A stretch of 39,163 nt of DNA from Spirochaetales bacterium (lineage in GTDB: Bacteria; Spirochaetota; Spirochaetia; UBA9216), in NCBI GenBank assembly GCA_016839055.1, contig JAEKNX010000025.1, positions 1-39,163 of the forward strand. The letters are read 5' to 3'. Under the pieces are notes generated by a model. That model saw only the letters and a list, made by a program, of their open reading frames with translations. It searched no databases and had not been told where the DNA came from. This document shows, piece by piece, positions 14,003 through 34,057 of the stretch (position 1 is its first letter; the number at the start of each line of letters is the position of its first letter). The position numbers were made by a program, and so were the translations under genes.

Positions 14003-14045
14003 ATCTTTAGTATATCCTTTTCTAAGGGCTTTGAAAAGGAAACAT

Positions 14046-14088: not shown

Positions 14089-14099
14089 AGTGGTATATT
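14071..14099 (+). promoter_or_regulatory. Promoter of the importer/lar operon
   Basis: TTGAAA (14071-14076), a 17-base spacer and TATATT (14094-14099), 40 bases before ATG 14140. A strong sigma-70-type match in the right place. Confidence 0.6.
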
Positions 14100-14139
14100 G
14101 AGTAAATAAATATATATCACCATAAAAAGAGGAAATTTA

Positions 14140-15279: not shown

Positions 15280-15280
15280 T

Positions 15281-16354: not shown

Positions 16355-17106
16355 CCTTAAACGTAGAAAGTTTGAGATTTGCGTATAAAGAAAATACTGT
16401 TCTCCACGATGTGAGTTTTTCAACAGGTGACGCGGGAATTACAGCCGTTCTTGGACCAAACGGTTCAGGTAAAACGACATTGCTGCGCTGCATAAACCGT
16501 ATACTCAAACCCCAAGGCGGCAGGGTTCTTTTGGATGATAAGCCTGTAGATAAGCTGACAGGGAAAGAGATAGCGAAATCAATTGCTTATGTAGCTCAAA
16601 AAACATATTCAGGAAATATCAGTGTCTTTGATGCTATACTTTTGGGTCGAATTCCGCATATTTCTGCAAATGTTTCTGATAATGATATGGCTGTAACTAA
16701 CGACGTTATCGAGCGCCTTGATATGGTTAGCTTAAGTCTGCGGATGCTCAATGAGCTTAGCGGTGGAGAATTGCAGAAGGTTTCCATAGCAAGAGCTCTT
16801 GTTCAACAAACTTCTCTGATACTGCTTGATGAGCCTACAGCTGCTCTGGATCTAAAGAACCAGATTGATATTTTAAAATTATTAGGTGAAATAACAGAGA
16901 AAAACCAAATCAAGGTGCTACTGTCAATACATGATTTAAACACTGCATTTCGTTATGCTGATCAGTTTATTTTTTTAAAAAATGGCAAAGTAGTTGGTTT
17001 CTCAGATCGCTGGGGAATTACGGCTGGGATGATCGAAAATGTATATAACGTTTCGGTCGATCTTCGATGGTTCGATGATATTCCTGTAATTACACCGGCA
17101 AATTAA
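16351..17106 (+). CDS. FecE/BtuD-type ABC ATPase
   Basis: A 251-residue cytoplasmic ATPase completing the FecBCD-type importer. Walker A GPNGSGKTT (about residues 36-44), Q-loop in AYVAQKTYSG, signature ELSGGELQKVSIARAL, Walker B LILLDEPTAALD and switch histidine in SIHDLN are all present. Start overlaps the permease stop as ATGA. The TsaA-FmdE gene follows after 15 bases. Confidence 0.9.
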   Translation: MTLNVESLRFAYKENTVLHDVSFSTGDAGITAVLGPNGSGKTTLLRCINRILKPQGGRVLLDDKPVDKLTGKEIAKSIAYVAQKTYSGNISVFDAILLGRIPHISANVSDNDMAVTNDVIERLDMVSLSLRMLNELSGGELQKVSIARALVQQTSLILLDEPTAALDLKNQIDILKLLGEITEKNQIKVLLSIHDLNTAFRYADQFIFLKNGKVVGFSDRWGITAGMIENVYNVSVDLRWFDDIPVITPAN

Positions 17107-17121
17107 TGGAGAAAACCATAA

Positions 17122-18195: not shown

Positions 18196-19397
18196 AAACA
18201 GTATTGTTCTATGAACCCTTCGCCGGTATAAGTGGTGATATGCATATAGGAGCTATGATTGATCTCGGAGTACCGGAATCATACCTGATAGAATCTTTGA
18301 AATCATTGAAGCTGCCTGGATGGTCTATCAGTTTTGGAAGGGAAAAGCGTTGCGGAATTGCCGGCACCCGGGCTGTCGTGAATATTGGTCACGGCCACGA
18401 AGATCATGACGAGCATGGACACCACCACCATCACCGAAATATCAGAGACATAGCACATCTTATTGAAAAAAGTAGCCTGAATGTTAACGTCAAAGATCTT
18501 ACCATGAAAATTTTTAATATTGTAGCAGTTGCCGAGGCGAAGGTTCATGAAATGCCTGTCGATGAGGTGCATTTCCATGAAGTCGGTGCTGTTGATTCGA
18601 TTGTTGATATCACAGCTGCCGCTATAGCAATCGATTATCTGAAACCTGATAGAATTATATCAACTGCACCAGAGTTAGGAGGAGGTTTTGTGAAATGTGC
18701 TCATGGAACCATTCCTGTTCCGGCTCCTGTTACCGTTGAGATCTTAAAGGGATTACCGGTGAGATTCGGAGCAGTACAATATGAAACCACAACCCCGACG
18801 GGGGCAGCAATTCTTTCAGCTTTAGTTGCTGAATTCGTAGAAAAGCCTGTGTTGAAAATTGAAAAGATAGGTTGCGGTGTTGGTACCCGTGATGCTGAGA
18901 TTCCGAATTTGCTGCGGGTCTATCTTGGAAAGACGCCCGATGTTTCCGCAGAACTTTCTGACGGAATCTCTTCAAAGGAAGCTCTGATGATAGAATGCAA
19001 TATAGATGATATGAATCCGGAATTATTTGGCCATGTGACAGAAAAACTGCTTGAAGCCGGTGCAAAGGATGTATTTATGACTCCTGTCTTCATGAAGAAA
19101 AACCGGCCTGGAATCCTTCTGTCTGTTATGTCTTCTATAGAAAATAAGGAGCGGATTCTTGGCATTATCTTTCATGAAACTACGACCGCAGGATTGAGAG
19201 AATACCCCGTTACACAGAAAATGCTTGAACGACGCTTTGAAACAATAAAAACCCATTATGGAACGATAAAAATCAAAAGCTTTTTTTATAAGGGGAAAAA
19301 GGTATCATCGAAGGCTGAATATGAGGATGTAAGGCGTCTTGCCTTAGAGCATAATGTCCCCATGAAAGAGATATATGAAGCTATTGAGCGCAGATAA
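18192..19397 (+). CDS. larC: LarC, nickel insertion protein for nickel-pincer nucleotide
   Basis: LarC inserts nickel into the bis-thiocarboxylated nucleotide P2TMN in a CTP-dependent step, forming the nickel-pincer nucleotide cofactor. Marks include FYEPFAGISGDMHIGAMIDL at the N-terminus, VDEVHFHEVGAVDSIVDI, PTPTGAAIL-type TTTPTGAAILSAL, and the C-terminal domain ECNIDDMNPELFG and VFMTPVFMKKNRPG. Residues 67-81 are a histidine-rich stretch (HGHEDHDEHGHHHHH), a likely nickel store. It is one continuous 401-residue gene, unlike the lactobacillus larC made by programmed frameshift. It overlaps the FmdE stop by four bases and ends in TAATG with larE. Confidence 0.93.
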   Translation: MKTVLFYEPFAGISGDMHIGAMIDLGVPESYLIESLKSLKLPGWSISFGREKRCGIAGTRAVVNIGHGHEDHDEHGHHHHHRNIRDIAHLIEKSSLNVNVKDLTMKIFNIVAVAEAKVHEMPVDEVHFHEVGAVDSIVDITAAAIAIDYLKPDRIISTAPELGGGFVKCAHGTIPVPAPVTVEILKGLPVRFGAVQYETTTPTGAAILSALVAEFVEKPVLKIEKIGCGVGTRDAEIPNLLRVYLGKTPDVSAELSDGISSKEALMIECNIDDMNPELFGHVTEKLLEAGAKDVFMTPVFMKKNRPGILLSVMSSIENKERILGIIFHETTTAGLREYPVTQKMLERRFETIKTHYGTIKIKSFFYKGKKVSSKAEYEDVRRLALEHNVPMKEIYEAIERR

Positions 19398-20191
19398 TGA
19401 CAATAGATAATAAAATAGAGCGTCTCAAGGATTGGGCTGAAGCTTATACAAGCTGTTCGGTAGCTTTTTCAGGCGGAGTGGACAGCACATTTCTGCTCTC
19501 AGCTTTACAAAGATATACAAGCCTGAAGGTTCATGCTGTTACCTTATTTCCGCCTTATGTTCCGGTTTGGGAAGTTGCAGAGGCCAAGCAGTTTGCAATA
19601 TCATCGGGCATAGATCATGTGATAATTCCTGTGGATATTCCTGATGCCATACGTACCAACCCTGTTAATCGTTGTTATCTATGTAAGAGTCAGATTTTTA
19701 GTCGAATAGTAGAACAGGCTTCTAAGGAGGATTTGGATGTTATTGCAGACGGTACGAATGCTGATGATGATCCGGAGGAGAGGCCTGGAATGAAAGCTCT
19801 GTCTGAAATAGGGATTCAAAGTCCGCTGAGGATGTGCGGACTCACAAAGAAGGATATTAGAAACCTCTGCCGTAAATGGAAGTTGCCGGTTGCCGGCAAA
19901 CCGACATACTCATGTCTGCTTACCAGGCTTCCGCATAATACCGAAGTAAATCCTTATGTCATTATACGTATTGAAAAGGCTGAAAGGTATCTTCACTCGC
20001 TTGGATTTCCGGCTGTACGGGTTCGCACCTCAGGTGATGGCAAGGCGGCACAAGTGGATGTAGCGCCTTTTGTTTTGTCTGCGTTGTCGTCTCCCGAAAC
20101 TATAAAATTAATTAATAGTCGATTTAAAGGACTTGGATACAGTAGTGTAACAATAGGAAACAAAGATGAAGAAAATAGAAGAGATACTTGA
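19397..20191 (+). CDS. larE: LarE, sulfur transferase for nickel-pincer nucleotide
   Basis: LarE turns the dicarboxylated nucleotide made by LarB into the dithiocarboxylate P2TMN. The 264-residue protein has the PP-loop SGGVDST (25-31) for adenylation, the NRCYLCK motif (Cys 93, Cys 96) and KPTYSCLLTRLPH, where Cys 173 matches the position of the sacrificial sulfur-donor cysteine in known LarE. The EADGTN-like element ADGTNADDDPEERPG is also conserved. Start ATG 19397 shares a base with the larC stop. It overlaps larB by 26 bases. Complete. Confidence 0.92.
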   Translation: MTIDNKIERLKDWAEAYTSCSVAFSGGVDSTFLLSALQRYTSLKVHAVTLFPPYVPVWEVAEAKQFAISSGIDHVIIPVDIPDAIRTNPVNRCYLCKSQIFSRIVEQASKEDLDVIADGTNADDDPEERPGMKALSEIGIQSPLRMCGLTKKDIRNLCRKWKLPVAGKPTYSCLLTRLPHNTEVNPYVIIRIEKAERYLHSLGFPAVRVRTSGDGKAAQVDVAPFVLSALSSPETIKLINSRFKGLGYSSVTIGNKDEENRRDT

Positions 20192-20903
20192 GAAGGTAAA
20201 GTCAGGAGAACTGGATATTGAGCAGGCCTCCGAAAACGTTGAAGCCCTTTTTTTTAAGGATCTTGGTCATACCGTTATTGACATGGATCGCGAGCGGAGA
20301 ACTCGTCAGGCTGAGGTGATTTACTGTGCCGGCAAAACGGTTGAACAGATAAAGGATATACTGTCTGCTCACGAGCTTGAACAGAATGGAGTTCTATGTA
20401 CTCGGATGAGTAATGAGATTTATGAACAGATCAAGGAGCATTTTCCGGCTGGTGAATATGATTCTGTTTCAAGACTCTTTATGCTTCAAAAAAAACAACG
20501 GTTTTTAAATCGGGGGTATATAGCAGTAGTGAGCGCCGGAACTTCGGATAAACCTGTAGCGGAAGAGGCGGCACAGACTATTGAGTTTTACGGACATGAG
20601 GCCCGCAGGTTTAATGATGTTGGAGTAGCAGGACTTCACCGGCTTCTCAGGCATATTGATGAGATAAGGGGCGCAAACGTTATTATAACCGTAGCAGGAA
20701 TGGAAGGTGCTCTTACAAGTGTTGTCGGCGGATTAGTCGGGGTGCCTGTAATAGCAGTTCCTACAAGCGTTGGGTACGGGGCAAGCTTTCATGGCTTCAC
20801 AGCCCTTCTGTCAATGCTGAACAGCTGCGCTTCCGGGGTCTCTGTTGTTAATATAGATAACGGGTTCGGTGCCGGATACCTATCTGTGATGATTAATAAT
20901 TAG
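20166..20903 (+). CDS. larB: LarB, nicotinate adenine dinucleotide carboxylase/hydrolase
   Basis: LarB carboxylates the pyridine ring of nicotinic acid adenine dinucleotide and splits the phosphoanhydride, the first step to the nickel-pincer nucleotide. The 245-residue protein has the PurE-like C-terminal domain: AVVSAGTSDKPVAEEA, RFNDVGVAGLHRLL, VVGGLVGVPVIAVPTSVGYG and SVVNIDNGFGAGY. AGGAA lies seven bases before ATG 20166, inside larE. It closes the operon; no larA (lactate racemase) follows. No strong terminator is seen until 21288. Confidence 0.93.
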   Translation: MKKIEEILEKVKSGELDIEQASENVEALFFKDLGHTVIDMDRERRTRQAEVIYCAGKTVEQIKDILSAHELEQNGVLCTRMSNEIYEQIKEHFPAGEYDSVSRLFMLQKKQRFLNRGYIAVVSAGTSDKPVAEEAAQTIEFYGHEARRFNDVGVAGLHRLLRHIDEIRGANVIITVAGMEGALTSVVGGLVGVPVIAVPTSVGYGASFHGFTALLSMLNSCASGVSVVNIDNGFGAGYLSVMINN

Positions 20904-21044
20904 GGCTTGCTGACCGCAGATAAGATTTATCAAACACGTGAAATCGTAATTTCTGTAAAGAGAACAATATCCGGATATTAGGATGAAGTCGACAGAATAG
21001 CCGTTAAGGATGGTTCAGAGTGGCTAAATGAAAATATTGATTAG
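20904..21044 (+). pseudogene. Decayed reading frame after larB, unrecognised
   Basis: One frame is readable as GLLTADKIYQTREIVISVKR, then a TAG stop, then DEVDRIAVKDGSEWLNENID and TAG at 21042-21044. It has coding character but no start and an internal stop. I do not recognise the family. From 21045 to 21287 I see no gene. Confidence 0.3.
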
Positions 21045-21287
21045 GATTGATAAAATCAAGACTGAAAGAAACAAGCGAGACTTATATTTATATCTTAATA
21101 CTGGTGTTAAACCTTGATAAAACATGTGCAAGGCTGTCCTAATGACCTGCGGGATCATCCAACCTAGGTTAGTTGTTTTTAGCCTTAGTTTGTAAAACAA
21201 ACTTTTATTTTCGCGATCTTCAGGCTATTCTGATTAAAATATAGGGCTTTTTAGTCTAAAAATCTGTAAAAATACTATGTTTTGGTA

Positions 21288-21320
21288 GCTGTCCGATAAC
21301 TTTCTAAGTTATCGGACAGC
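21288..21320 (+). terminator. Long perfect hairpin, probable terminator of the lar operon
   Basis: A 15-bp perfect stem (21288-21302 with 21306-21320) and a 3-base loop. The tail is CTTATATAAT rather than a clean T run. It is symmetrical enough to work in both directions between the plus-strand lar genes and the minus-strand small genes. Confidence 0.6.
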
Positions 21321-21374
21321 CTTATATAATAAAAGTGTAGATAAAAAAGTTAGTAATAGCAATGAGGGTGAGAA

Positions 21375-21571
21375 TTACCGCTTAACGATAAGCACCTCAC
21401 CCCCATTTATAAATTTTTCAAAGGCTCTTCTATCGTGGTTTTTTTCTTCACGATAGAAATGCTGCAGAGCCGCCCTTGCCTCCTCAATCCTGGTTTTTTC
21501 TGACATAACACGGTAAAAATTCGTCATCGCTTTTTTTCTTTCATAGAGTTCCTTCAGGGTTTAGTTGTCAT
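21375..21571 (-). pseudogene. Small basic protein, frameshifted; possibly still made from 21527
   Basis: The 50-codon frame from ATG 21527 reads MTNFYRVMSEKTRIEEARAA, then an LQHFYREEKNHDRRAFEKFI helix and a VLIVKR end. Upstream, coding continues as LKELYERKKA but is one base out of frame with an ATG at 21571 (MTTK) that overlaps the preceding gene stop as ATGA. One added base in AAACCC would restore a protein of about 66 residues. I do not recognise the family. It pairs with the membrane-anchored small gene upstream. Sequencing error and true decay cannot be told apart. Confidence 0.45.
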
Positions 21572-21856
21572 CCCTTTAATAGTGTTAGATGTTCATTCTC
21601 CTCGTCTATTATTTCATCGATAATCATCCTGCGTTTGGAATTTTTGAGCTTGTCTCTGGCGGCGGCCAGCATTATCAGATAAGTATCTTCAAAGCTCTCT
21701 GCGGCCTTCATTATTGAAGTCTGAATGAGCTCGCTGTTTGTCTTGATGTTTTCTTCCTGTATTTTTTTTGGGAACAAAAGATTCCCCAATATAGAGTAGC
21801 CTGAATATAATAAAAAGGACACCGGCGGCAATTATAATATTTACCGAGAATGTCAT
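21568..21856 (-). pseudogene. Small single-span membrane protein, frameshifted in a run of eight A
   Basis: From ATG 21856 the frame reads MTFSVNIIIAAGVLFIIFRL, a plausible membrane anchor, up to VPKK. At an A8 run (minus strand; T8 at 21762-21769 on plus) the sensible frame shifts to IQEENIKTNSELIQTSIMKA and continues through a helical DKLKNSKRRMIIDEIIDEE tail to the stop at 21568. Seven A would give one protein of about 95 residues. This is either a homopolymer sequencing error, a dead gene or slippage-based phase variation. Function unknown; the following small gene is coupled by ATGA. Confidence 0.45.
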
Positions 21857-22441
21857 ATACTGTCAAATTTACTACTTGTTTATCTTCAAGATGAAGACTT
21901 CTATGAATTATTTTTATACAGAATCGGCTCACACTCAGAATTGTTTAATTAATTCCCGTACTGACAATAAATTATTGCCAAAGGAGAATCCTGCATTGAT
22001 TCTGCCCGAATAAAACTGAGTAGCAGTTAAGCTTGTAGTGTAGTTTAAATCTGTCGGACTCTTTAATGATGAATATCCACATTCAAGCTAACAAAATCCG
22101 ACAAGAAAAATGATTGAGCTATAATAACTATCATAACTAAATAAATCGTAAATGCTGACCTTCTAACCTGATCTTTTGTGGATGTTTATATAACAAGATA
22201 ATAATTAAGATAACTAACAGGGAGAAGCCGGGGTATCAACAGTAAATCAAAGCGGCAAAGACTGTGCTCGACTATTTGATTGAGAGGGATTTATCCAGAA
22301 CACTGCGCCAAGAAGCTTTAAGTAGTAAAAAAATAAAAATCTAACAATCATAATAAAAGCTCTCTGAAATTTATCCGAACTATAACGTAATAATAATATT
22401 ATGCTCTTAACTTTAGGTAATCAAATAAGTCGGAGGACTAA
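21857..22441. other. Gene-poor stretch with one decayed coding fragment
   Basis: No intact gene is visible. At 22261-22344 a plus-strand frame reads TVLDYLIERDLSRTLRQEAL and ends at a TAA; it has no start and looks like a remnant. GGAGGA at about 22432-22437 is the ribosome site of the following binding-protein gene. I could not pick a convincing promoter. Confidence 0.4.
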
Positions 22442-23761
22442 ATGAGAAAAATATTTTTATCAGTGATGTTTGTACTTGCTGTTACTGTCGCAGTTTTTGC
22501 TGGCGGTGTTCAGGAGACAAATGTAAAAGAAGCGACACAAATCTACTTCTGGCATGCATTCAGTGACGCCCCTCGGTCAGGTTGGATACAGGACAGAGCT
22601 GATGAGTTTAATGCTTCACAGGATGACTTTAGGATCATTGTTGAAGCAAAGGGTTCATATAGAGATACACTTCAGGCTGCTGTTCTTGCAGATAAGCAGG
22701 GTGATGCACCGCACATTGTTCAGGTCTTTGAGGTAGGTAGCCAGCTTGCTTTTGATACTGGAATATTCAAACCTATTGCTGAAATAGGAAGCTTTGACAC
22801 GTCTGACTACATTAAGCCGGTACTTAACTATTATACAATCAACGGTAAGGTTAATTCCATTCCATTCAACAGTTCATCACCTGTTCTTTACATCAATCGA
22901 GACAAGATGGTTGAAGCAGGATTTGATGCAAATTACGTCCCTGCAACATTTAGCGATGTAATTAAGGTTCTCGAAGTTGCAAAGGCTAAAGGTGTTTTGG
23001 GAGCTAAATACTCCATGAACCTTCACGGCTGGTTTTACGAGCAATGGATGGCTGAGCAGGGTGCTATGATGGTAAATAACGGAAACGGCCGCGATGACAG
23101 AGCTACTGAAACTCTGCTTGACAGTAGCCCCTCCGTAAAAATCGGTAATTTCATGTCAGAGCTTGCAAAAAAAGATCTGTATACATATACAGGAAAACTT
23201 GAAGATTGGGGCGGTTCTGATGCTATATTTCAGGAAGGCAAGGCTATGATGCATGTTACTTCAACCGCAGACCTTGGAAATATTTCATCAGCAGTAAACG
23301 GTAAGTTCAATCTCGGGGCAGGTTTTCTACCGATTGCAGACGGTGTGGAAAGAAACGGAACAGTTATCGGTGGTGCAAGTGTCTGGGTTGCAAAGAATCA
23401 TCCTGATAATGAGCTTACCGCCTCATGTGATTTCATCCTTTATATGACAAATACTAAAAACATGGTCAGTTGGCATAAGCTTACTGGTTACTATCCTGTA
23501 AGAACCTCTTCTATAAAGGTTCTTACAGCAGAAGGTTGGTTTGATAGTGATGTCAACCAAATTGTTGCTTTCGATCAGCTTCTTGCAACAAAGACAAATA
23601 AGGCGACAGCAGGCGCGATAGCCGGAACTCTTCTTGAAAACAGGTCAATAATTGAAATGGCTTTCCAGAAAATCATTCAGGGTGGAGATGTTAAAGCCGC
23701 TCTTAGTGAGGCAAAGATTCTCTCTGATGCTAAACTTGCAGAGTACAATGCTAATTTCTAA
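22442..23761 (+). CDS. Family 1 (UgpB-type) extracellular solute-binding protein
   Basis: A 439-residue binding protein for a CUT1-type ABC importer. Signal peptide ends at VFAGGVQETN, the spirochaete-style export signal. The mature chain shows IYFWHAFSDAPRSGWIQ, then YRDTLQAAVLADKQGDAPHI, and GYYPVRTSS close to the family's final lobe, most like glycerol-3-phosphate binder UgpB. GGAGGA precedes ATG. The two permeases follow. Sugars, glycerol-3-phosphate or another polar solute are possible; I cannot decide from sequence. Its base use is like its neighbours. Confidence 0.82.
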   Translation: MRKIFLSVMFVLAVTVAVFAGGVQETNVKEATQIYFWHAFSDAPRSGWIQDRADEFNASQDDFRIIVEAKGSYRDTLQAAVLADKQGDAPHIVQVFEVGSQLAFDTGIFKPIAEIGSFDTSDYIKPVLNYYTINGKVNSIPFNSSSPVLYINRDKMVEAGFDANYVPATFSDVIKVLEVAKAKGVLGAKYSMNLHGWFYEQWMAEQGAMMVNNGNGRDDRATETLLDSSPSVKIGNFMSELAKKDLYTYTGKLEDWGGSDAIFQEGKAMMHVTSTADLGNISSAVNGKFNLGAGFLPIADGVERNGTVIGGASVWVAKNHPDNELTASCDFILYMTNTKNMVSWHKLTGYYPVRTSSIKVLTAEGWFDSDVNQIVAFDQLLATKTNKATAGAIAGTLLENRSIIEMAFQKIIQGGDVKAALSEAKILSDAKLAEYNANF

Positions 23762-23788
23762 ATAGTATTAATTACAAACAATGTCGGT

Positions 23789-23810
23789 GTGCCTTTGTTT
23801 TCAAAGGCAC
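23789..23810 (+). promoter_or_regulatory. Intercistronic hairpin after the binding-protein gene
   Basis: GTGCCTTTG (23789-23797) and CAAAGGCAC (23802-23810) form a perfect 9-bp stem with a TTTT loop between binding protein and permease genes. It has only a weak T tail, so it more likely stabilises the upstream message or partly attenuates than fully terminates. Confidence 0.6.
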
Positions 23811-23837
23811 GCTGGTTATTCTTTAAGGATACTTTTA

Positions 23838-24776
23838 ATGTCAAATAATAATGAAAATGCCGTCTTTACCGGCGGCTGGAAGATTTTGCTGTTTATATTG
23901 CCGACAATCTTAATCCTTGTAGTTTTCCTGTACTTCCCGGCATGGCATTCGATTGTATTGAGTTTTTTTAGAAGCAATCTTTTTCTTGGTACCCGTAAGT
24001 TTATCGGTTTTGAGAACTTTCGAAATCTATTCATTGGTCCACTCGCACCGGCGTTTATTCAGAGTCTGTTTCAGACAATCTTTCTAAGTCTGTTTATAGT
24101 AATAATCGGGCTGCCAATTTCAGTCTTTCTTGCAATCCTAGCGAATAAGAAAATCCGGGGAGCAAAAGTATATCGTATGCTTTTAATATGGCCTTTTGCA
24201 TTGTCTCCCGCAGTTGCAGGAACAATATTCCTCTTTATTTTTAATCCTGAAGTGGGAATAATAAATACCTTGCTGGATTCTTTGTTTTCAATAAAACCGC
24301 GATGGTTGGATTCTCCGATACTTGCTGTTATCCTTGTTATATTTGCAGCTGTGTGGAAGAACCTAGGGTACAACATAGTTTTTTATCTTGCAGCTCTTCA
24401 AAACATTCCATCTGAGCCTCTTGAGGCTGCGGATATAGATGGTGCAGGGCCGTTTCGGAAGTTTTTTAATATTGTGTTGCCGCTTCTAAGTCCTACAACA
24501 TTTTTTCTGCTGTTTACTAATCTTAGCTATGGATTTTTCGAAACTTTTGGTCTTATAGATATTCTCACATCTGGAGGCCCTGTTGGTCCTCCGGGATTTC
24601 TTGATCATAGCGGAATAACCACAACTATAATGTACAAGGTTTTTGAAGACGGATTCGGAGGCAGCAGCAATATGGGCTTTGCTGCTGCTGAAGGAGTAAT
24701 TTTGCTGATTATGGTAGGCATTTTTGCCTATTTTCAATTCAGTCATCTTGGAAAAAGGGTTCACTACCAGGGGTAA
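23838..24776 (+). CDS. UgpA-type ABC permease
   Basis: First membrane subunit of the CUT1-type importer, 312 residues with about six helices. The EAA loop is EPLEAADIDGAGPFRKFFNIVLPLL, the segment docking to the ATPase. I start at ATG 23838 (MSNNNENAVFTGG) because AAGGA lies nine bases before it; the longer frame from 23781 reads through the hairpin. The next permease begins 3 bases after its stop. Confidence 0.85.
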   Translation: MSNNNENAVFTGGWKILLFILPTILILVVFLYFPAWHSIVLSFFRSNLFLGTRKFIGFENFRNLFIGPLAPAFIQSLFQTIFLSLFIVIIGLPISVFLAILANKKIRGAKVYRMLLIWPFALSPAVAGTIFLFIFNPEVGIINTLLDSLFSIKPRWLDSPILAVILVIFAAVWKNLGYNIVFYLAALQNIPSEPLEAADIDGAGPFRKFFNIVLPLLSPTTFFLLFTNLSYGFFETFGLIDILTSGGPVGPPGFLDHSGITTTIMYKVFEDGFGGSSNMGFAAAEGVILLIMVGIFAYFQFSHLGKRVHYQG

Positions 24777-24779
24777 TTT

Positions 24780-25706
24780 ATGTCTGATGTAAAATTGAAA
24801 AGAAGAAAGAATATTTATTATAAAGAATCCGTTTGGATTCATGTATTGCTGATCATTACAGTTATAATTGTATGCTTTCCAATCCTCTTTGCGTTTATTA
24901 AATCTACTCAGAGTACCGCCGAGGTACTTTCGCCTATGATGCATCCGGGCACAAGTTTTTTTCATAATATCAAACGGGCGTTGATTGATTACAAACTCGG
25001 TTTATACATGAAAAACTCACTGATAATTTCCGTGGCGGTTACGGCAGGTAAAATTGTTCTGTCCTTTATGGCAGCTTTCGCGCTTGTGTTTTTCAAGTTT
25101 AGAGGTAAAGAGATTCTCTTCGCATTCATCATTATTACGCTGATGCTTCCGACCGAGGCGCTTATACTTGGATTGTTTGATCTGGTTGCCAACCATCCGG
25201 CACAGAATATCGGTGATTTTCTGAAATGGATTCTGAATCCGACGGAACTGTTGTTTCAGCCTATAAAATACGGATTTGGCTGGTCACAGAACTATCTGGC
25301 TATTATTGCACCGTTTATGGCTTCCGCTACAGGAGTTTTTCTTTTTCGGCAGCATTTCAGCTCAATCCCTCGTTTAATGGTTGATTCAGCTATAATAGAC
25401 GGGGCAGGGCCGCTTATTTTTATTTTTCACATACTAATACCAATGAGCAAAAACACAATCGGTGCACTTGCGCTGATACAGTTTATCTATGTATGGAATC
25501 AGTATCTCTGGCCAAGAGTTATAGTTCGCTATGATGTAAATCAGGTTGTGCAGGTCGGACTTAACAAAATTATTGCCACAGGAGATGCAGTCTATTGGGG
25601 GGAGGTAATGGCTGCAACCGTGATAGCACTGGTTCCGCCGCTTATTGTTTTTGGACTACTTTATAATTCATTTATGAAAGGGTATGCATTAAGCTCGAAC
25701 AAATAA
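24780..25706 (+). CDS. UgpE-type ABC permease
   Basis: Second membrane subunit, 308 residues, about 30 longer than typical because of a loop near residues 135-170 (VANHPAQNIGDFLKWILNPT and following) before the helix pair that precedes the EAA loop. The EAA loop reads MVDSAIIDGAGPLIFIFHIL, followed by WNQYLWPRVI, which is characteristic of CUT1 permeases. No ATPase of this importer is encoded here; a shared MalK/UgpC-type ATPase elsewhere is the usual explanation. Confidence 0.83.
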   Translation: MSDVKLKRRKNIYYKESVWIHVLLIITVIIVCFPILFAFIKSTQSTAEVLSPMMHPGTSFFHNIKRALIDYKLGLYMKNSLIISVAVTAGKIVLSFMAAFALVFFKFRGKEILFAFIIITLMLPTEALILGLFDLVANHPAQNIGDFLKWILNPTELLFQPIKYGFGWSQNYLAIIAPFMASATGVFLFRQHFSSIPRLMVDSAIIDGAGPLIFIFHILIPMSKNTIGALALIQFIYVWNQYLWPRVIVRYDVNQVVQVGLNKIIATGDAVYWGEVMAATVIALVPPLIVFGLLYNSFMKGYALSSNK

Positions 25707-25845
25707 TTAATGTCTCTTCTGAAAAAAGGAAATAGAAAAACCTGTGCCTATCTCGGAATTTGGAAGTTGAATTTTTCCATGGTTCCGTTCCTTCGCGGCA
25801 ATTTGCTTCCTTTTTTTGGCAACACGTATATCCTCTATCGAGAAA

Positions 25846-26082
25846 CATAAAACACAAAATCTGGGTTGTATCTCGCGAAGGCTTCGAGTTCGTCTAAAAG
25901 TCCGAAGATTGTAACGATCTTCCTTCCTTCTCCGCCTGTCAGGTTCAGGGTGGAGTCCGCTTTAGGATCTCAGCCTATCTGCAGGACTTTGTAACTGTTG
26001 ATTTTCCTATCCTGCCTTTGCCATAGATGGCTATTTTTCACATATTATTCACCATGTAATTAGATCTTTAATTAAAGTTAAC
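25846..26082 (-). pseudogene. Decayed second copy of the nifH-like gene
   Basis: The stretch aligns base by base with the functional gene at 11957-12712. Bases 25846-25928 match about 12342-12424, then a gap, then 25929-25990 match about 12567-12625, then another gap, then 25988-26082 match about 12657-12757. The last part includes the start codon context and about 45 bases of upstream DNA. Two internal deletions and point changes destroy the frame. The remnant points away from nikB at 26200, so its former 5' end faced the nik operon. Confidence 0.85.
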
Positions 26083-26093
26083 GCGTATAAACA

Positions 26094-26122
26094 TTGACAA
26101 AATATTTTTATCAGAGTAGGTT
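26094..26122 (+). promoter_or_regulatory. Candidate promoter of the nik operon
   Basis: A perfect TTGACA (26094-26099), 17 bases, then TAGGTT (26117-26122). It lies 70-100 bases before nikB and directly next to the nifH-like remnant. The -10 is weak; TAATAT near 26148 is an alternative. Confidence 0.4.
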
Positions 26123-26199
26123 GCTTGTATTGTGGATAGGGTAGTTTAATATAGTTACGCTAACCTAATTTATTATTAATTGAATAAGTTGGATGGTCT

Positions 26200-27177
26200 A
26201 TGGTTTATATAAAAATTCTATTCCAGTATATACTGGTTTTTTTCGTGATTCTTATAATTAACTTTGCACTTCCGCGGATAGCTCCGGGAGACCCTGCGAT
26301 ATATCTTGTAGGTGATGATATTCAGTACATGTCTGAAGAGGAGCGTCTTCAGGTACTCAAAGAGTTCAAGCTCGATCTCCCTGTGATGCAGCAGTTTAAA
26401 AATTATATTACAGGGATCTTTAAAAAGGATCTCGGTGTTTCAATTATCTATGGACGCCCCGTTTGGGATATTCTTAGAGATAGGCTGCCATGGACATTTC
26501 TGATTATGGGTGTTGCAATGCTGTTCAGCGCGTCGATAGGTATAATTTTGGGAGTCATCGGAGCATGGAAGAGGGGCGGGCGCCGTGATATCGGTTCCCT
26601 CGTTATAGTTATGACACTCGGTTCTGTTCCGCCGTTTTGGGTAGCCATGCTGCTGATTACCTTGTTTTCTGCAAAACTGCATTGGTTTCCGTCTTTTGGT
26701 GCCTATGCAATTGGGGCAATACCCGGAACCTTTGCGTATTTTGTTTCTGTCCTTCAGCGAATTATTCTTCCTGTTCTGACATTGACCCTTGTTAAAACCG
26801 GGGCCATGTTTTTGACTGCGCGCTCGTCAATGGTAATAGCCATGGAAGAGGATTATGTGATGCTTGCTCATGCTAAGGGTTTGAAAGAGAAAACGGTGAT
26901 TTTTAGGCATGCGCTCCGCAACGCTGTGCTTCCGATCTACACCAATATCATGATGGGTCTTGGAGCAATGGTGGGAGGGGCTGCAATAATTGAAACGGTT
27001 TTCTCTTACCCCGGACTTGGAAATACTATCTATGAAAGCGTAACAGCCCGTGACTACAGTCTTCTTCAGGGGAGCTTTCTGGTTGTCTCAATTAGTATTC
27101 TCTTTTTTAACTTCATTGCTGATCTCGGGTATCCACTACTTGATCCCAGAGTACGCAAGCAGACTGTAGGGAGGTAG
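26200..27177 (+). CDS. NikB/DppB-type ABC permease
   Basis: Inner-membrane permease of the nickel/peptide importer class, 325 residues. N-terminal helix VFFVILIINFALPRIAPGDP is the family opening. The EAA-type loop is EDYVMLAHAKGLKEKTVIFRHALRNAVLPI, here split by its usual turn, followed by GGAAIIETVFSYPGLG and LLDPRVR at the end. Nickel rather than peptide is inferred from the NicO and CooC genes in the same operon. The next gene starts 4 bases later. Confidence 0.82.
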   Translation: MVYIKILFQYILVFFVILIINFALPRIAPGDPAIYLVGDDIQYMSEEERLQVLKEFKLDLPVMQQFKNYITGIFKKDLGVSIIYGRPVWDILRDRLPWTFLIMGVAMLFSASIGIILGVIGAWKRGGRRDIGSLVIVMTLGSVPPFWVAMLLITLFSAKLHWFPSFGAYAIGAIPGTFAYFVSVLQRIILPVLTLTLVKTGAMFLTARSSMVIAMEEDYVMLAHAKGLKEKTVIFRHALRNAVLPIYTNIMMGLGAMVGGAAIIETVFSYPGLGNTIYESVTARDYSLLQGSFLVVSISILFFNFIADLGYPLLDPRVRKQTVGR

Positions 27178-27181
27178 CAGG

Positions 27182-29710
27182 ATGAAAATATTGAATTTGA
27201 ACAAGTCGGAACATCGTTTTCGTTTAGTGGGAATATTGCTGGTTTCTTTTTTTCTGGTGACAAGTGTCTTTGCTCCGGTTATTGCTCCATACGATCCGTA
27301 TGAGAGAGTTGGAACGCCGTTCGAGCGTCCTTGTCTTGAGCATATTCTGGGTTGTAATGATGTAGGTCATGATCTGTTCTCTGAACTTATATATGGAGGA
27401 AGGGTTTCTCTTTTTATTGGCCTTTTTGCTTCATTTTACTCGACTCTTGTTTCTTCCCTGCTTGCTCTTGCGGCCGGTTATTACGGCGGCAGAACAGACC
27501 GGCTGATAATGCGGACTGTAGATGTTGTTATGTCTCTACCGTTTCTTCCTCTTGTTATTGTGCTTGGGGTATTTCTCGGCCCTGGCATAAGTACTCAGAT
27601 TATTGTAATAACAACCGTAATGTGGGCGCATCCTTGCAGGGAACTCAGATCTCAGGTTATGAAAATAAGGGAGAGCGGGTATATAGATGCCGCCCGTTCA
27701 ATGGGGGAGCGGTCTATTGTTACAGTTTTTCGTCATGTGCTTCCAGAGTTGATGCCGCTGATTGTTCCTCAGTTTGTGCGGGTTGTACAACAGGCTATAA
27801 TGATTGAGTCATCACTGAGTTTCCTTGGATTAGGCGATCCGGTGCTTAAGAGTTGGGGATCTATTCTTTTCTTTGCTAATACCAGAGCCGCTTTTCTTAC
27901 CGGTGCCTGGGTTAATTGGGTGCTCCCCCCTGGGCTTTGCATTGCTATGACGGTTCTGGGGTTTTCTTTTATTGGTTTTTCACTTGGCGGCAGGATCGGT
28001 CTTAGCTACTATCCTTTCGGCTCATTTATATTAAAGCGAAAGAAGACCTCTAATGATGCTCCGGCTGATGATGTCAGGTTATCAGTTAATGAGCTTGTGA
28101 CAGTTTATAATCCGGTACTGAATCAATGTGTTGCTGTGAACGATGTTTGTTTTGATGTTAAAAAAGGAGAGATGCTTGGTCTTGTGGGAGAGTCCGGCTG
28201 TGGAAAGTCTACTATTGCTATGTCTGTTTTGGGAATGCTGCGATATCCGGCCGAGATTTCACAAGGAGTAATTATTCTGGACGGCAAGGACCTTCTAAGC
28301 TTTTCAAGGCAGAACTTTGCGAAAATCAGGGGGCGGCGTATTGCCTATATTCCGCAGAATGCTATGAATGCCCTGAATCCGGTTGTTTCAATAAAAAAAC
28401 AGTTGATTGAGGCCGTTTTAACTCATCAGACCATTAGTCGCGCCGCTGCTGTTGAAAGGGTTCGCGAGGTTTTAGAAATGGTCGAAATACCAGAAGACAG
28501 GATTAATGCATTTAATCATGAACTCTCCGGCGGTATGAAGCAGCGGGTTGTCATTGCAATGGCGCTGGTAAACAATCCGGACTTTCTGATTGCAGACGAG
28601 CCTACTACAGGACTCGATGTTCTTGTTCAGCAGGAGATAGTCCGGCTGCTCGTACGGCTCAAACAACAGCTTGGATTGAGTATCCTCTTTATTACCCATG
28701 ATCTGCCGCTTGTTATGACTTACTCCGATAAAATGGCTGTAATGTATCAGGGAGAGATCGTCGACAGCGGATCCGTCGATGAAGTTTATTATAATTCGAC
28801 GCATGTTCACACTAAAGCTCTCTTTTCCAGCTTTCCCTGTCTGTTTGAGCAGAAGCGATGGAAGAGGGATGCTTTTCTGCAGGAAGGCCAGGCCTCGCTT
28901 GTTCTTGAAAATGTTACAAAGAGTTTTTATAGTAAGAGAGGGTTGTTTGCGAAGGGGCTTAAGCCTGTTTATGCGGTGAAGGATGTTAGTCTGTCGGTTA
29001 TGCCTGGTGAGGTAGTCGGGCTTATAGGCGGAAGCGGATCCGGGAAGTCGACAATCGCGCGTCTTGTGATGGGGCTTGAGACTCAAGACGAGGGAAAGAT
29101 TTTTATTAACGGGCTTGAACTTGCAGGTAAGAGCAGAAGGATGAAACAGGAAATTCTGCGGGACATTCACCTTGTCTTTCAGGATCCATATCAGTCGATG
29201 CGCAGTCATATGAAGATTTTCGATATTGTTGCAGAGCCTCTTCGTATTCACGGCACCAGAGGCCGTGCAGAGATAGACGCACGGGTGCGTAATGCCCTGC
29301 GTGAAGTTAGTTTACCCTGTGATGACGGCTTTCTACTTAGGCATCCTTCAGAGCTTTCAGGAGGTCAGCGGCAGAGATTGTCCTTTGCAAGAGCTATTGT
29401 AATTAATCCTAAGTTTATTATTGCCGATGAGCCGACATCGATGCTTGACGTGTCACTGCGCAGCGGCCTACTTGAATTGATGGAGAAGCTCCGTTCAGAT
29501 CATGGGGTGGGCTTTGTTTTTATTACTCATGATCTTGCCCTTGCAAGGCATTTTTGTGACCGCCTGCTTGTGCTGAACGATGGTTCAATTATAGAGCAGG
29601 GGGAAAGCGATGATGTAGTTTTTTCGCCTGTAGAGAATTATACCAAGCGGCTTATTTCAGCTGTTGAAGAGCCTGATTTGATGAAGTCTTCCAGGGCTCT
29701 TTCGGTATAG
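27182..29710 (+). CDS. Triple fusion: NikC-type permease + NikD-type ATPase + NikE-type ATPase
   Basis: One 842-residue frame encodes three importer subunits that are normally separate. Residues 1-280: permease with YDPYERVGTPFERPCLEHIL, the EAA loop GYIDAARSMGERSIVTVFRH and SLSFLGLGDPVLKSWG. Residues about 300-555: first ATPase with Walker A GESGCGKST (about 336), IPQNAMNALNPV, signature ELSGGMKQRV and Walker B FLIADEPTTGLD. Residues about 570-830: second ATPase with GGSGSGKST (about 616), VFQDPYQSM, ELSGGQRQRLSFAR and FIIADEPTSMLD. All ATPase motifs look intact, so the fusion should be active with NikB and a binding protein (32384). Permease-ATPase and ATPase-ATPase fusions are known; the triple form is unusual. 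Confidence 0.87.
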   Translation: MKILNLNKSEHRFRLVGILLVSFFLVTSVFAPVIAPYDPYERVGTPFERPCLEHILGCNDVGHDLFSELIYGGRVSLFIGLFASFYSTLVSSLLALAAGYYGGRTDRLIMRTVDVVMSLPFLPLVIVLGVFLGPGISTQIIVITTVMWAHPCRELRSQVMKIRESGYIDAARSMGERSIVTVFRHVLPELMPLIVPQFVRVVQQAIMIESSLSFLGLGDPVLKSWGSILFFANTRAAFLTGAWVNWVLPPGLCIAMTVLGFSFIGFSLGGRIGLSYYPFGSFILKRKKTSNDAPADDVRLSVNELVTVYNPVLNQCVAVNDVCFDVKKGEMLGLVGESGCGKSTIAMSVLGMLRYPAEISQGVIILDGKDLLSFSRQNFAKIRGRRIAYIPQNAMNALNPVVSIKKQLIEAVLTHQTISRAAAVERVREVLEMVEIPEDRINAFNHELSGGMKQRVVIAMALVNNPDFLIADEPTTGLDVLVQQEIVRLLVRLKQQLGLSILFITHDLPLVMTYSDKMAVMYQGEIVDSGSVDEVYYNSTHVHTKALFSSFPCLFEQKRWKRDAFLQEGQASLVLENVTKSFYSKRGLFAKGLKPVYAVKDVSLSVMPGEVVGLIGGSGSGKSTIARLVMGLETQDEGKIFINGLELAGKSRRMKQEILRDIHLVFQDPYQSMRSHMKIFDIVAEPLRIHGTRGRAEIDARVRNALREVSLPCDDGFLLRHPSELSGGQRQRLSFARAIVINPKFIIADEPTSMLDVSLRSGLLELMEKLRSDHGVGFVFITHDLALARHFCDRLLVLNDGSIIEQGESDDVVFSPVENYTKRLISAVEEPDLMKSSRALSV

Positions 29711-29715
29711 GTGGC

Positions 29716-31494
29716 ATGGAAGTATTGCATAATAAATCTGTTTTTATTTTATCCCTTGTCTTAATTCTTCTCGGTATAACCTCCGTTCCGGCGTTCTGCC
29801 ATATAAATGATGAGGTGGCAATGAGAACGGGGATATTCTTTGAAGATGAGGGTATTGCCTTGACTCTTGAAATAGATGCCGGAATGCTTTTCGGACAGTA
29901 CTATCTTGAAATTCTGGATCTGGATAGAGATGAAATTTTTGGAACTGAAGATGTTCAGAAGTTTTCAGAGTTCGTAGTTGCAGGGTTACGGCTTCGCATA
30001 AACGATCTTAAGGTTCTTCCCGAGTTCGCGGGAGCAAGTTGTGCCTCGTTTGAGGAATTTGTTGCTGGTTTCTGTTATATCAAGCTTTGTTACATAATTC
30101 CGTATCCTGAAGATTTGGACAGGGTTTGCACTTTTTATTATGAAAATTGTCTTGAGGCCGAGATTGCAATATATTCGCTGAGCATAAGCGATACTGCCGG
30201 TTCTCCGATCAGCATAATTAAAGAAGAGCGCAATGAAATTCTGCAGGATTCCGTCACTATAACTTTTAGCAATGCGGCATCGACTGATGTTCAGGCTGAG
30301 GTAACTCAACAGCCTAGTCAGGAACCTGTTGAAGTGGCCGTTGTTGAGGTGGAAAGTAAAGCACAGCCTGTGATGCTTCCGGAAACTGAGCTTGCCGGCT
30401 CTGCGATGCTGATAAATAGGCTAAAAACCGGTGAAGTAAATTTTCTTGTACTAATTGTCCTTGCCGTAGTGATTGGTTTTTTACACGCCTTTACTCCGGG
30501 GCACGGAAAGTCTCTTGTAGGAGCTTATCTTGTCGCAAACCGGGGTACGGCTTCCCAGGCCTTGGGATTGGGGCTGATCGTGACCCTTACTCATACTGCA
30601 AGTATCTATGTTTTTGGCGGTCTTGCGTCGGCTGCGGCCTATTTTTTCATGCCGTCAAAGATTGTTCCGGTAATGACTGTTGTTTCAGGCGTCCTTGTCG
30701 TAATTATAGGGATATGGTCGGCAGTCCGAAGGCTTATAGGGCTTGAGGTTGATCACGCCCATATTCTGCCGAATTTGAAAGTTCTTAAAGAGGATCACAT
30801 CAACATTCTCGTCGACGGAAGTGCTGTAGAATCTTCCGAATTTCTTATTATTGAGGCTGAAGAAGATTGGGTTCAAAAACAGCTTCAGGCTGCCGGAGCT
30901 GAGGGAATAAATATCTGTTCTCCGGGCTGTGAGACCCATAATTTTATGCCTGCGATAGCGGCTGAGCGGCAGAATACACAGCTTGTCATGACAGCTGTCG
31001 AAACAGGTGCGGTGGATGCAATTGTCAGTAGAAGAAGCGGTCTTGCTGAGAAGATGCAAAACAAGAAATCGCTGCCGAATGTTGATATCTATCTTTCTCT
31101 GGACAGCCGGATCGAAGCTGCTGAGCTGCTGAGGCAGGCTTTGAGTAAGTATAATGACAGAGATGGAATAACGATTCCTGAAGAGGGATTATCCTGGAAA
31201 AAGCTGATCCCTCTCGGAATCGCTGGAGGGGCGGTACCATGTCCTGATGCTCTGGCCATCCTTCTTGTTTCGGTTTCGCTTGGCAGGGTGGCGTTAGGGC
31301 TCGGGATCGTGTTTGCGTTCAGCACGGGACTGGCTGCGGCTTTAGTATTAATTGGAATGACAATAGTTTTTTCCAATAAATTGATTTCGGGAACAAGCGG
31401 CTACCGCAAAATTGCAGGATTTTTACCGTATTTTTCAGCCCTGTTCCTTATTGGTCTGGGTGTTTACATGATTATAAATAATATTGGATTTTAG
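29716..31494 (+). CDS. NicO/RcnA-family nickel transporter with inserted CO-dehydrogenase-like segment
   Basis: A 592-residue membrane protein. Signal or first helix (about 8-28), then an extracytoplasmic domain (about 30-230) with an EILDLDRDEIFG motif as in other NicO/HupE-like proteins. The transporter core has VIGFLHAFTPGHGKSLVGAY (about 245-264) and GLIVTLTHTASIYVFGG, and closes with GGAVPCPDALAILLVSVSLG (about 503-522) and two further helices. Between the halves, where relatives have a short His-rich loop, residues about 350-490 resemble a piece of CO dehydrogenase CooS: NLKVLKEDHINILVDG, QAAGAEGINICSPGCETHN and ETGAVDAIVS. Most C-cluster ligands of that piece are absent. It should move nickel or cobalt; the insert may bind or deliver nickel. 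Confidence 0.8.
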   Translation: MEVLHNKSVFILSLVLILLGITSVPAFCHINDEVAMRTGIFFEDEGIALTLEIDAGMLFGQYYLEILDLDRDEIFGTEDVQKFSEFVVAGLRLRINDLKVLPEFAGASCASFEEFVAGFCYIKLCYIIPYPEDLDRVCTFYYENCLEAEIAIYSLSISDTAGSPISIIKEERNEILQDSVTITFSNAASTDVQAEVTQQPSQEPVEVAVVEVESKAQPVMLPETELAGSAMLINRLKTGEVNFLVLIVLAVVIGFLHAFTPGHGKSLVGAYLVANRGTASQALGLGLIVTLTHTASIYVFGGLASAAAYFFMPSKIVPVMTVVSGVLVVIIGIWSAVRRLIGLEVDHAHILPNLKVLKEDHINILVDGSAVESSEFLIIEAEEDWVQKQLQAAGAEGINICSPGCETHNFMPAIAAERQNTQLVMTAVETGAVDAIVSRRSGLAEKMQNKKSLPNVDIYLSLDSRIEAAELLRQALSKYNDRDGITIPEEGLSWKKLIPLGIAGGAVPCPDALAILLVSVSLGRVALGLGIVFAFSTGLAAALVLIGMTIVFSNKLISGTSGYRKIAGFLPYFSALFLIGLGVYMIINNIGF

Positions 31495-31577
31495 GAGGAA
31501 TGATAAAAACCTCCATGTTTTTTATCATTTTGAAGTTTGCAAGCAAACTTCACCTCTGTAACCCGCATCCATGCGGG
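31495..31577 (+). promoter_or_regulatory. Hairpin-rich leader before cooC
   Basis: Three stem-loops in 80 bases: TGATAAAAA (31501-31509) with TTTTTATCA (31519-31527), which competes with GGAGG/CCTCC pairing; a perfect 10-bp stem TGAAGTTTGC/GCAAACTTCA (31531-31552, 2-base loop); and CCCGCA/TGCGGG (31562-31577). The cooC ribosome site follows at about 31588. It is likely an mRNA processing, attenuation or stability element within the operon. Confidence 0.5.
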
Positions 31578-31600
31578 AATTCTTTATAGGAGATTACTTA

Positions 31601-32368
31601 ATGAAAAAAATTGCAGTATGTGGAAAGGGCGGAGTGGGTAAGACCACTTTCGCCTCACTGTTAATTCATGCGCTTGCTGATGAAGGCAGGACGGTTTATG
31701 CCATAGATGCCGATCCGAACCCTACCCTTGCTGAAGCCCTTGGATTTTCGGCGGATACTATTAGTAGAATTACCCCGATTATAGAGATGAAGACGTTAAT
31801 TGAAGAAAGAACCGGCGCAAAAAGTGGTGAATACGGTTCATATTTCAAGATGAATCCAACGGTAAAGGATATTCCGGCAGAGTATTCGGTTAAGAAGGGT
31901 AATATTAACTATTTGATGATGGGCTGTATGCGCGGAGCTGGCAAAGGCTGTGCGTGCGCAGAGAATGCCATGCTGAGATCTCTTGTTACTCATCTTATGG
32001 TAAAAGAGAAGGAAACTGTCGTAATGGACATGGTTGCCGGTACAGAACATATGGGTCGGGGGACGGCCAAGGCTGTCGACAGTCTGATCGTTGTTGTTGA
32101 ACCTGGAATTCGGAGTATTAAGGCGGCCAGGGAGTTCAGTAAAATGGCAGGCGTCTTGGGCATTAAGAATATTCACGTAGTTGGAAACAAGGTGAACGGA
32201 CTTGATGATGAGAATTACATCAAATCTAATATGTCTGATTTCAAGATTGCAGGATTTATGCCGTTGAACTCATCGGCCGTAATTGCTGAGCGTCAGGGGG
32301 CTGTTCTATTTGAAATATCTCAAAAGATGAGAAGCAGCGTTCAGAATATTATGAAAAACATATTTTAG
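31601..32368 (+). CDS. cooC: CooC-type nickel-inserting ATPase
   Basis: A 255-residue MinD-type P-loop ATPase of the CooC family, which helps to put nickel into the C-cluster of CO dehydrogenase. It shows deviant Walker A GKGGVGKTT (8-16), YAIDADPNPTLAEALG, and the nickel-binding CxC pair at Cys 117/Cys 119 in GKGCACAENAM, then VVMDMVAGTEHMGRGTAKAV typical of CooC. I start at ATG 31601 after AGGAGA; the upstream ATG at 31571 lies within a hairpin. Neighbours are a NicO transporter with a CooS-like insert and a NikA-like protein. No CO dehydrogenase gene is in the window, so its client is elsewhere or is a different nickel enzyme. Confidence 0.87.
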   Translation: MKKIAVCGKGGVGKTTFASLLIHALADEGRTVYAIDADPNPTLAEALGFSADTISRITPIIEMKTLIEERTGAKSGEYGSYFKMNPTVKDIPAEYSVKKGNINYLMMGCMRGAGKGCACAENAMLRSLVTHLMVKEKETVVMDMVAGTEHMGRGTAKAVDSLIVVVEPGIRSIKAAREFSKMAGVLGIKNIHVVGNKVNGLDDENYIKSNMSDFKIAGFMPLNSSAVIAERQGAVLFEISQKMRSSVQNIMKNIF

Positions 32369-32383
32369 TAAAAGGAGAATAGA

Positions 32384-34057
32384 ATGAAAAGAATTATTTG
32401 TATAACAGCCGCTATAGTACTGTTGTTGGTACCGGCCTTTGTTTTTGCTGGCGGGAAGCAGGAAGCTCCTAAGGCGGCTGGGGAAAAAGGCCCTCAAACT
32501 GCTGAGGAGTTGACAATAGGCATCTATAATGATGCGGGTAATGTCACTATTTGGGGTGGCGGGGCGTACAGCCCATGGGTTCTTGACTCTGTCTGTGAAC
32601 GCCTTACCGGCCCCAGCCCCTCAGGAGAAGAGCTGGAGATGGTTTTGGCTGAATATGTTAAACCTGTCACTGATGACAATACCGTCTGGGAAATAAAACT
32701 TAAGGCCGGCGTTAAGTGGCATGACGGAACTCCACTAACTTCTGAAGATGTCAAGTTTACTATAAATTATAATCGTGAAGGGCCTTCAAACAACCGCTAT
32801 TCACATCATACCAGTGCTGTGCCGCGGCTTCCGGGTGAGGGCATCACTATTATCGATGAGCTTACCCTTAGGGTTACCGGTGCATTTCCCATGCCATATT
32901 TCGATCGCGAACCATGTGCCGAGCTCCCTATTGTTCAGAAGGCTCAATGGGAGAACATCGAAGATCCGAGGCAGTTCGTCGGAAAGTCAATTGGCACCGG
33001 GCCTTATATGCTAATTGATTACAAGGTCGGGGAGTACTATAAACTTGAAGCTAACCCTGATTATCACATGGGAAAACCGCTTGTAGGTAGACTTACTCTT
33101 GTTGTTATAAAGGATCTTTCGACAATGTTTACTGCCCTTCGAAGCGGAGAGATTGACGGGGCAGCCCGGACTATGCCTGTTGAACTAGTTGCAGACTGGA
33201 AGGGTGATCCGAATCTGAATATTGTTCAGGTTCCGTATATGTGGGGGGCCTGCGTTACCCTCGATAATAAGAATCTGCCTTTCGGAGATTTGAAAACCCG
33301 TAAGGCACTTAGTTTATGTATCGATCGTGATGAACTACTCGAAATAGTAGCTCTCGGTCAGGGACTTTCAGGAACCCTCGGTTATCCCCATCCGGAAGCC
33401 TTTCATGCAAGCCCGGATAGTTTTCAAGCTTATGACCCGGCTGCCGGTAAAAAAATGTTTGACGAGCTTGGCTATATCGATGTTGACGGCGATGGTTTTA
33501 GGGAAAATCCCGATGGAACTAAGCTTGACTGGAGGATTATTGCTGAGACTAGTCAGCCTCTATATGTTAGAGCAGGAGAGATTTTAGTTGATCAGTTGGA
33601 GAATGTTAATATCAGAGCCCATGTTGAAGCGATGGAGAAGGCTTCCTTTTCGGAAACTCTCTATAAAAAAGGTAACTACAATATGTCTGTAGGTGAGTTT
33701 GTCCCTCATGGGCTTTGCGATGACGATATGATGATGGTTCTTCAGTACGGAGAGAAGAAGACCGATTTAATGCCGTATGCTGAAAGAGATCAGGCTCTTC
33801 TTGATTGGAAGGCCGCAGGGGACAAAGAAGGCAGGCTGGAAGCTTCATATAAGCTGCAGGCTCTTATTAACAAGTATCCCAAAAGGGTCATGCTTTGGTA
33901 CCCTCATGGATTCTTTGCATATAATAAAAATGCATATGATAACTATTCAATAGTCAGGGGCTATAATATTTTTAATAAATATTCATTCATTCCCAATGAT
34001 GCTCGTGATGGATTTGTTCTTGAGGATTATCCACAGACCGGTTTTGATAATATGTAA
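32384..34057 (+). CDS. NikA/DppA-type family 5 substrate-binding protein
   Basis: A 557-residue periplasmic binding protein of the nickel/peptide class. Signal peptide ends at VFAGGKQEAPK. Family marks: WEIKLKAGVKWHDGTPLTSE, IGTGPYMLIDYKVGEYYKLE, and VTLDNKNLPFGDLKTRKALS. It is the expected partner for NikB and the triple-fusion protein, although separated from them by the NicO and cooC genes. AGGAG precedes ATG 32384. The ligand could be a nickel chelate (as in NikA with a small organic ligand), a peptide or another polar compound; the context favours nickel. Confidence 0.83.
   Translation: MKRIICITAAIVLLLVPAFVFAGGKQEAPKAAGEKGPQTAEELTIGIYNDAGNVTIWGGGAYSPWVLDSVCERLTGPSPSGEELEMVLAEYVKPVTDDNTVWEIKLKAGVKWHDGTPLTSEDVKFTINYNREGPSNNRYSHHTSAVPRLPGEGITIIDELTLRVTGAFPMPYFDREPCAELPIVQKAQWENIEDPRQFVGKSIGTGPYMLIDYKVGEYYKLEANPDYHMGKPLVGRLTLVVIKDLSTMFTALRSGEIDGAARTMPVELVADWKGDPNLNIVQVPYMWGACVTLDNKNLPFGDLKTRKALSLCIDRDELLEIVALGQGLSGTLGYPHPEAFHASPDSFQAYDPAAGKKMFDELGYIDVDGDGFRENPDGTKLDWRIIAETSQPLYVRAGEILVDQLENVNIRAHVEAMEKASFSETLYKKGNYNMSVGEFVPHGLCDDDMMMVLQYGEKKTDLMPYAERDQALLDWKAAGDKEGRLEASYKLQALINKYPKRVMLWYPHGFFAYNKNAYDNYSIVRGYNIFNKYSFIPNDARDGFVLEDYPQTGFDNM

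Follow-up and report, generated by a model that had tools for sequence, protein, structure and literature searches.

Gene content of the locus

The window (the whole stretch of DNA analyzed, 39,163 nt) contained a nitrogenase-like operon (nfl) in its left arm and a transport operon (nik) in its right arm, both on the same contig of a Spirochaetales genome. The features relevant to the analysis were the following:

8879-9484 (minus): SAM methyltransferase gene at the end of the nfl operon, adjoining the end of nflK (PF08241, E 4.6e-12)
9484-10635 (minus): nflK, nitrogenase component 1-like (PF00148, E 8.5e-34)
10650-11960 (minus): nflD, nitrogenase component 1-like (PF00148, E 2.2e-25)
11957-12724 (minus): nflH, intact NifH-like ATPase/reductase (PF00142, E 2.7e-86), likely ATG at 12712
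12746-12761 (no strand): palindrome GTTAATGCAAGTTAAC upstream of the active nflH, a perfect GTTAA-N6-TTAAC and possible operator
13226-20903 (plus, except deoR, minus): block of eight genes, namely deoR, btuFCD-like, trmO-fmdE, larC, larE and larB
22442-25706 (plus): Ugp-type importer, ugpBAE (UgpB orthologues at 61-76% identity)
25846-26084 (minus): decayed 5' fragment of nflH, codons 1-121 minus deletions of 37 and 132 nt, plus 41 nt of upstream DNA
26077-26092 (no strand): putative degenerate counterpart of the palindrome, GTTAACGCGTATAAAC, between remnant and nikB, one mismatch from GTTAA-N6-TTAAC
26094-26123 (plus): nik promoter-like element beginning ATTGACAA, conserved upstream of nikB
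26200-27177 (plus): nikB, nickel/peptide ABC permease (NF045470 nickel ABC permease, E 4e-74, below cut-off)
27182-34057 (plus): nikCDE fusion, nicO with a CO-dehydrogenase-like insert, cooC-like ATPase gene and nikA, assigned by family matches and in the same order in relatives

The products of nflH, nflD and nflK belonged to the nitrogenase superfamily and failed the curated nitrogenase, DPOR and CfbC models, placing them with the group IV nitrogenase-like NflHDK proteins, in which a NifH-like protein and two component-1-like subunits are likewise encoded in one operon. NflH scored far below the equivalog cut-offs for NifH, BchL/BchX and CfbC (290.5 bits with the CfbC model vs. a cut-off of 402). 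Beside the operon lay a decayed flavodoxin gene (8046-8282; TIGR01752, E 1e-21), a possible former electron donor.

In the right arm, NikB shared 68-74% identity with the NikB of the corresponding operons of relatives, and both NikA (85-88 bits) and NikB (185-249 bits) scored below the curated cut-offs for the nickel importer NikABCDE. We therefore infer nickel as the substrate from the neighboring nicO, cooC and lar nickel-pincer genes. Residues 353-438 of the NicO-type nickel/cobalt transporter (29716-31494) resembled anaerobic CO dehydrogenase (TIGR01702, E 1.4e-6). Relatives carrying the nik operon had a NicO of similar length, and NicO was not found on plasmids.

Most of the DNA between the arms corresponded to the eight-gene lar block, which was found with its gene order kept in two other spirochaete genomes (G009 and G035), with neither nfl nor nik in the 20 kb read. 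The block was conserved at loci L117 and L118, and a shorter btuFCD-trmO/fmdE form was observed in five more spirochaetes (L119-L123). Orthologues of ugpBAE with no such nfl or nik pair alongside were detected in six genomes (G002, G030, G031, G034, G050 and G054). Since both units are self-contained elsewhere, both can be read as arrivals in a gap of 13.1 kb. An earlier note on this DNA had proposed that the Ugp importer came in between the two operons; this is plausible but incomplete, as the lar block also lies there and fills most of the gap. Downstream of ugpE, a long imperfect hairpin (25719-25822; z-score -2.2), unique in the genome and ending in a T run, is possibly the ugp terminator. 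The whole locus was flanked by a transposase gene with an integrase core on the left (6986-8023) and by a second, fragmented transposase-like gene on the right (37277-38199), while a small HTH gene and its partner ORF near the contig end (38363-38972) resembled a toxin-antitoxin pair.

A decayed nflH copy upstream of nikB

Pairwise alignment showed that the segment at 25846-26084 (minus strand) matched positions 12346-12753 of the same strand, corresponding to the 5' part of nflH and the DNA upstream of it. Of the 239 aligned nt, 23 were mismatched (90.4% identity); the remnant also had internal deletions of 37 and 132 nt, and the homology reached 41 nt upstream of the likely nflH start codon. 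The earlier note had described a decayed second nifH-like copy with two deletions and about 45 bases of upstream homology, pointing away from nikB; all of this was borne out, nikB lying on the plus strand, although the end given for the copy (26082) fell 2 nt short. A BLAST search covering all 5.0 Mb of the genome gave E values of 4e-37 and 2e-25 for the two blocks of the remnant and detected no copy besides the remnant and the active gene. Similarly, the 15-mer TTAACTTTAATTAAA from the region upstream of nflH occurred at just two sites genome-wide, in the active copy and in the remnant.

The reading frame of the remnant was disrupted by two in-frame TGA stops, at R2 (AGA to TGA) and C37 (TGC to TGA), and by a frameshift resulting from the 37-nt deletion; in addition, codons 122 onward were missing. 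Decoding of the TGA codons as selenocysteine was rejected, since the gene would be disrupted regardless by the 37-nt deletion and the loss of its 3' half. Identity between remnant and active copy was 95% in the 41 nt upstream and 89% in the coding part, where the 65 aligned codons held 12 nonsynonymous and 9 synonymous differences. The resulting dN/dS of 0.37, based on few sites, was near the value of about 0.5 expected if one copy were free of selection and the other constrained. With the genome UBA5339 as an outgroup for the older state, wherever it permitted a guess (it is distant, at 65% nucleotide identity), most nonsynonymous changes were assigned to the remnant, and the active gene accounted for some of the synonymous ones. 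Given the small counts and the distance of UBA5339, the substitution pattern therefore offers support, short of proof; it fits a remnant that would have drifted freely since roughly the time of duplication, next to a constrained active copy. Homology to an intact gene, a broken frame and release from purifying selection thus identify the fragment as a pseudogene of nflH. It is now without coding function, while its final 40 nt or so may persist within the DNA upstream of nik.

Upstream elements and gene order in other genomes

The promoter-like element ATTGACAA was located 107 nt before nikB in the window and 69-128 nt before it in five other spirochaetes (G428, G562, G584, G591 and G486), with a chance of 0.6-0.9% per locus in shuffled sequences. 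Its presence at all six spirochaete loci therefore indicates orthology on the nik side of the gap. In the same five genomes, the palindrome GTTAG-N6-CTAAC, either perfect or differing at one position, was also present upstream of nik (loci L090/L091, L099, L101, L103 and L089), and it adjoined nflH as well in G562 and G584. No site for GTTAG-N6-CTAAC itself was present in the window, yet GTTAATGCAAGTTAAC and GTTAACGCGTATAAAC look like relatives of it, and, judging from these sequences, regulation of nfl and nik by a common regulator through the palindromes is plausible. Further exact copies of GTTAG-N6-CTAAC (L100:4488 and L100:9976) suggest a wider regulon. A DtxR-like metal box at 26150 (15/19 positions) was dropped, because shuffled windows hold about five sites scoring at least 13. 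Similarity between the nik leader and the region upstream of the active nflH did not exceed that of shuffled sequences.

The nik operon with nicO was rare: it was found in 3 of 196 relatives and in 3 of 393 genomes across the phylum (the genome under study counted in both), in 6 of 200 genomes of the family f42, and in 1 of 52 around a SAR324 metagenome-assembled genome (MAG). Ten other genomes had the same operon (nikB, nikCDE, nicO, cooC, nikA), and for six of these the sequence preceding nikB could be read. An intact nflH stood head to head with nikB in four (G428, G562, G584 and G591, all spirochaetes of family f42), followed by nflD, and then by nflK where the contig extended that far. 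The start-to-start gap between nflH and nikB was roughly 170-270 nt in these genomes, where start positions were set by alignment and are good to some 15 nt, vs. 156 nt between the start codon of the remnant and nikB in the window. In the SAR324 MAG (JANQGX010000064.1), nflH-nflD-nflK-nikB-nikCDE-nicO-cooC-nikA were collinear, in one direction, and only G486 had nik without nfl beside it. In G002, a genome of the same genus, the contig ended before nikB, and the nfl-nik junction was seen only in distant relatives. The proposal that nfl had once been divergent from nik, or had been duplicated there, finds support in the four intact divergent pairs and in the collinear SAR324 arrangement; a situation in which relatives always keep the two operons far apart, which would have spoken against it, was not encountered.

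The phylogenetic affinities of the two operons differed. NflH and NflK from the window grouped with UBA5339 and then with SAR324, while the four relatives with divergent genes represented another nfl subclade; in the nik genes, the window lay next to the f42 genomes, with SAR324 as the outlier. The nearest members of the window's own nfl subclade were either collinear (SAR324) or had no nik nearby (UBA5339, the nearest nfl kin). As the groupings disagree, either the divergent order is old and the nfl subclades diverged or were swapped beneath it, or it has two separate origins. The remnant itself shows that the window's own nfl subclade was once, at least in part, divergent from nikB. Two tandem nflHDK sets, one from each subclade, were observed both in G002 and in a Ruminococcus MAG (L037 and L054).

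Probable parting of the operons and its meaning

Since a living nflH occupies the same place and direction in four relatives, the remnant probably marks where back-to-back gene sets were parted, by about 13,000 bases. The explanation that best accounts for the data as a whole, to which we assign a probability of roughly 0.8, is that the remnant is an nflH fossil in its old place and that a divergent nfl/nik pair was later separated; that the remnant is a pseudogene in the former position of nflH, head to head with nikB, is held with still firmer confidence. The ancestor would have carried nflHDK and nik in divergent orientation around one short shared promoter region, the arrangement observed in the relatives. 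About 13.1 kb, now positions 12754-25845 with the lar block and ugpBAE, would then have entered the nflH-nikB gap, leaving the first 408 nt or so (from 41 nt ahead of the start codon through codon 121) on both sides in the same direction. The copy attached to nflDK would have stayed intact, whereas that on the nik side, severed from codons 122 onward, would have been inactive at once and have drifted thereafter with no sign of selection.

Direct repeats do bound the interval 12754-25845, with homology ending at 12753/26084 and 12346/25846, and the DNA at the junctions was unrelated, as in an insertion with a duplicated target; the flanks matched no better than shuffled sequences, and neither did 25707-25845 when compared with the nfl operon. 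Such repeats would be left by single-crossover integration or by another insertion with target duplication, and a one-step insertion appears to us an evenly balanced proposition as the route; relocation or insertion with a duplicated target may each account for the trace. Neither junction carried a recognizable transposase or integrase gene, and no close relative with an unoccupied insertion site was found. An ORF near the left junction (12797-12985) resembled a transposase on visual inspection but was rejected as one, having returned nothing from Pfam, NCBIfam, BLAST to the local transposase or plasmid tblastn. Direct repeats with a truncated, decaying copy are also known from ordinary pseudogenes formed by partial duplication or target-duplicating insertion, but in the window the repeat is about 0.4 kb long and the junctions are those just described.

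The main rival, which we consider rather unlikely, is a duplication of the whole nflHDK operon or of a longer stretch, after which deletions next to nik removed nflD, nflK and the greater part of nflH from one copy while the far copy survived, so that the order nfl-lar-ugp-nik would result from duplication and deletions together. A larger copy reduced in this way would leave the same trace, the survival of an nflH fragment only being explicable by deletion, and decayed genes, such as that for flavodoxin, do occur in the same area. Against this, a search of the window turned up no vestige of nflD, nflK or the methyltransferase gene, whether around the remnant or farther off, nflK is single-copy in the genome, and more events are needed. 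A chance origin, in which a copied piece of nflH 5' DNA happened to land before nikB although the operons had never been linked, is improbable. The absence of nik beside nfl in UBA5339 would agree with such a copy, as would the 90% identity between remnant and active gene, from which it follows that the duplication itself is not ancient; the remnant, however, has the position, direction and spacing of the intact nflH of the four relatives, and by a rough estimate a landing within 300 nt of nikB in the right direction would be expected about 3 times in 100,000 genome-wide, and in less than 1% of cases even within the window. Least probable of all is retention of the remnant for a function, as a nik regulatory element or an RNA acting on nflH: the GTTAA-N6-like palindrome and the well-conserved 41 nt upstream are retained, and relatives carry GTTAG-N6-CTAAC in the same intergenic DNA, but the coding part drifts by nonsynonymous changes and deletions, upstream identity is little above that of the coding part, the remnant is oriented to its promoter as nflH is and its own transcript would therefore be sense rather than antisense, no Rfam family matched within it (the sole match elsewhere was a tRNA), and a promoter scan was at chance level.

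Decayed gene fragments are commonplace; under the preferred reading of a parted divergent pair, however, this one exposes an nfl-nik linkage hidden by the present gene order. That linkage joins a nitrogenase-like reductase, nickel import and a CooC-type ATPase, persists intact in a SAR324 bacterium as well as in four spirochaetes, and offers nickel as a concrete hint at the role of one branch of uncharacterized nitrogenase-like enzymes. Group IV enzymes include some with sulfur roles and others without a known role (PMC9147875, PMC10418091, PMC12176620), homologues of this group are reported in termite-gut spirochaetes (PMC13067680), and no paper on nfl-nik linkage was found in the open literature searched. 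The linkage to nickel import in several genomes sets the nfl set of the window apart within group IV. Its three-gene plan is that of the methylthio-alkane reductase MarHDK, also of group IV, but the window lacks a recognized marB or sulfur genes and has nickel transporters instead. It also recalls CfbC/CfbD, the Ni-sirohydrochlorin a,c-diamide reductive cyclase of the coenzyme F430 pathway, in which a nitrogenase-like reductase is likewise tied to nickel; unlike that system, the locus is bacterial, has two component-1 genes instead of cfbD alone, and showed no F430 genes in the window. Tentatively, nflHDK and nikB-nikCDE-nicO-cooC-nikA might form a conserved functional unit in bacteria, with a shared promoter and a GTTAG-N6-CTAAC operator, whose reductase needs or acts on nickel. 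If so, a nickel-tetrapyrrole or other nickel cofactor would be an example of a target, and the remnant would show that an insertion is able to break up the unit.
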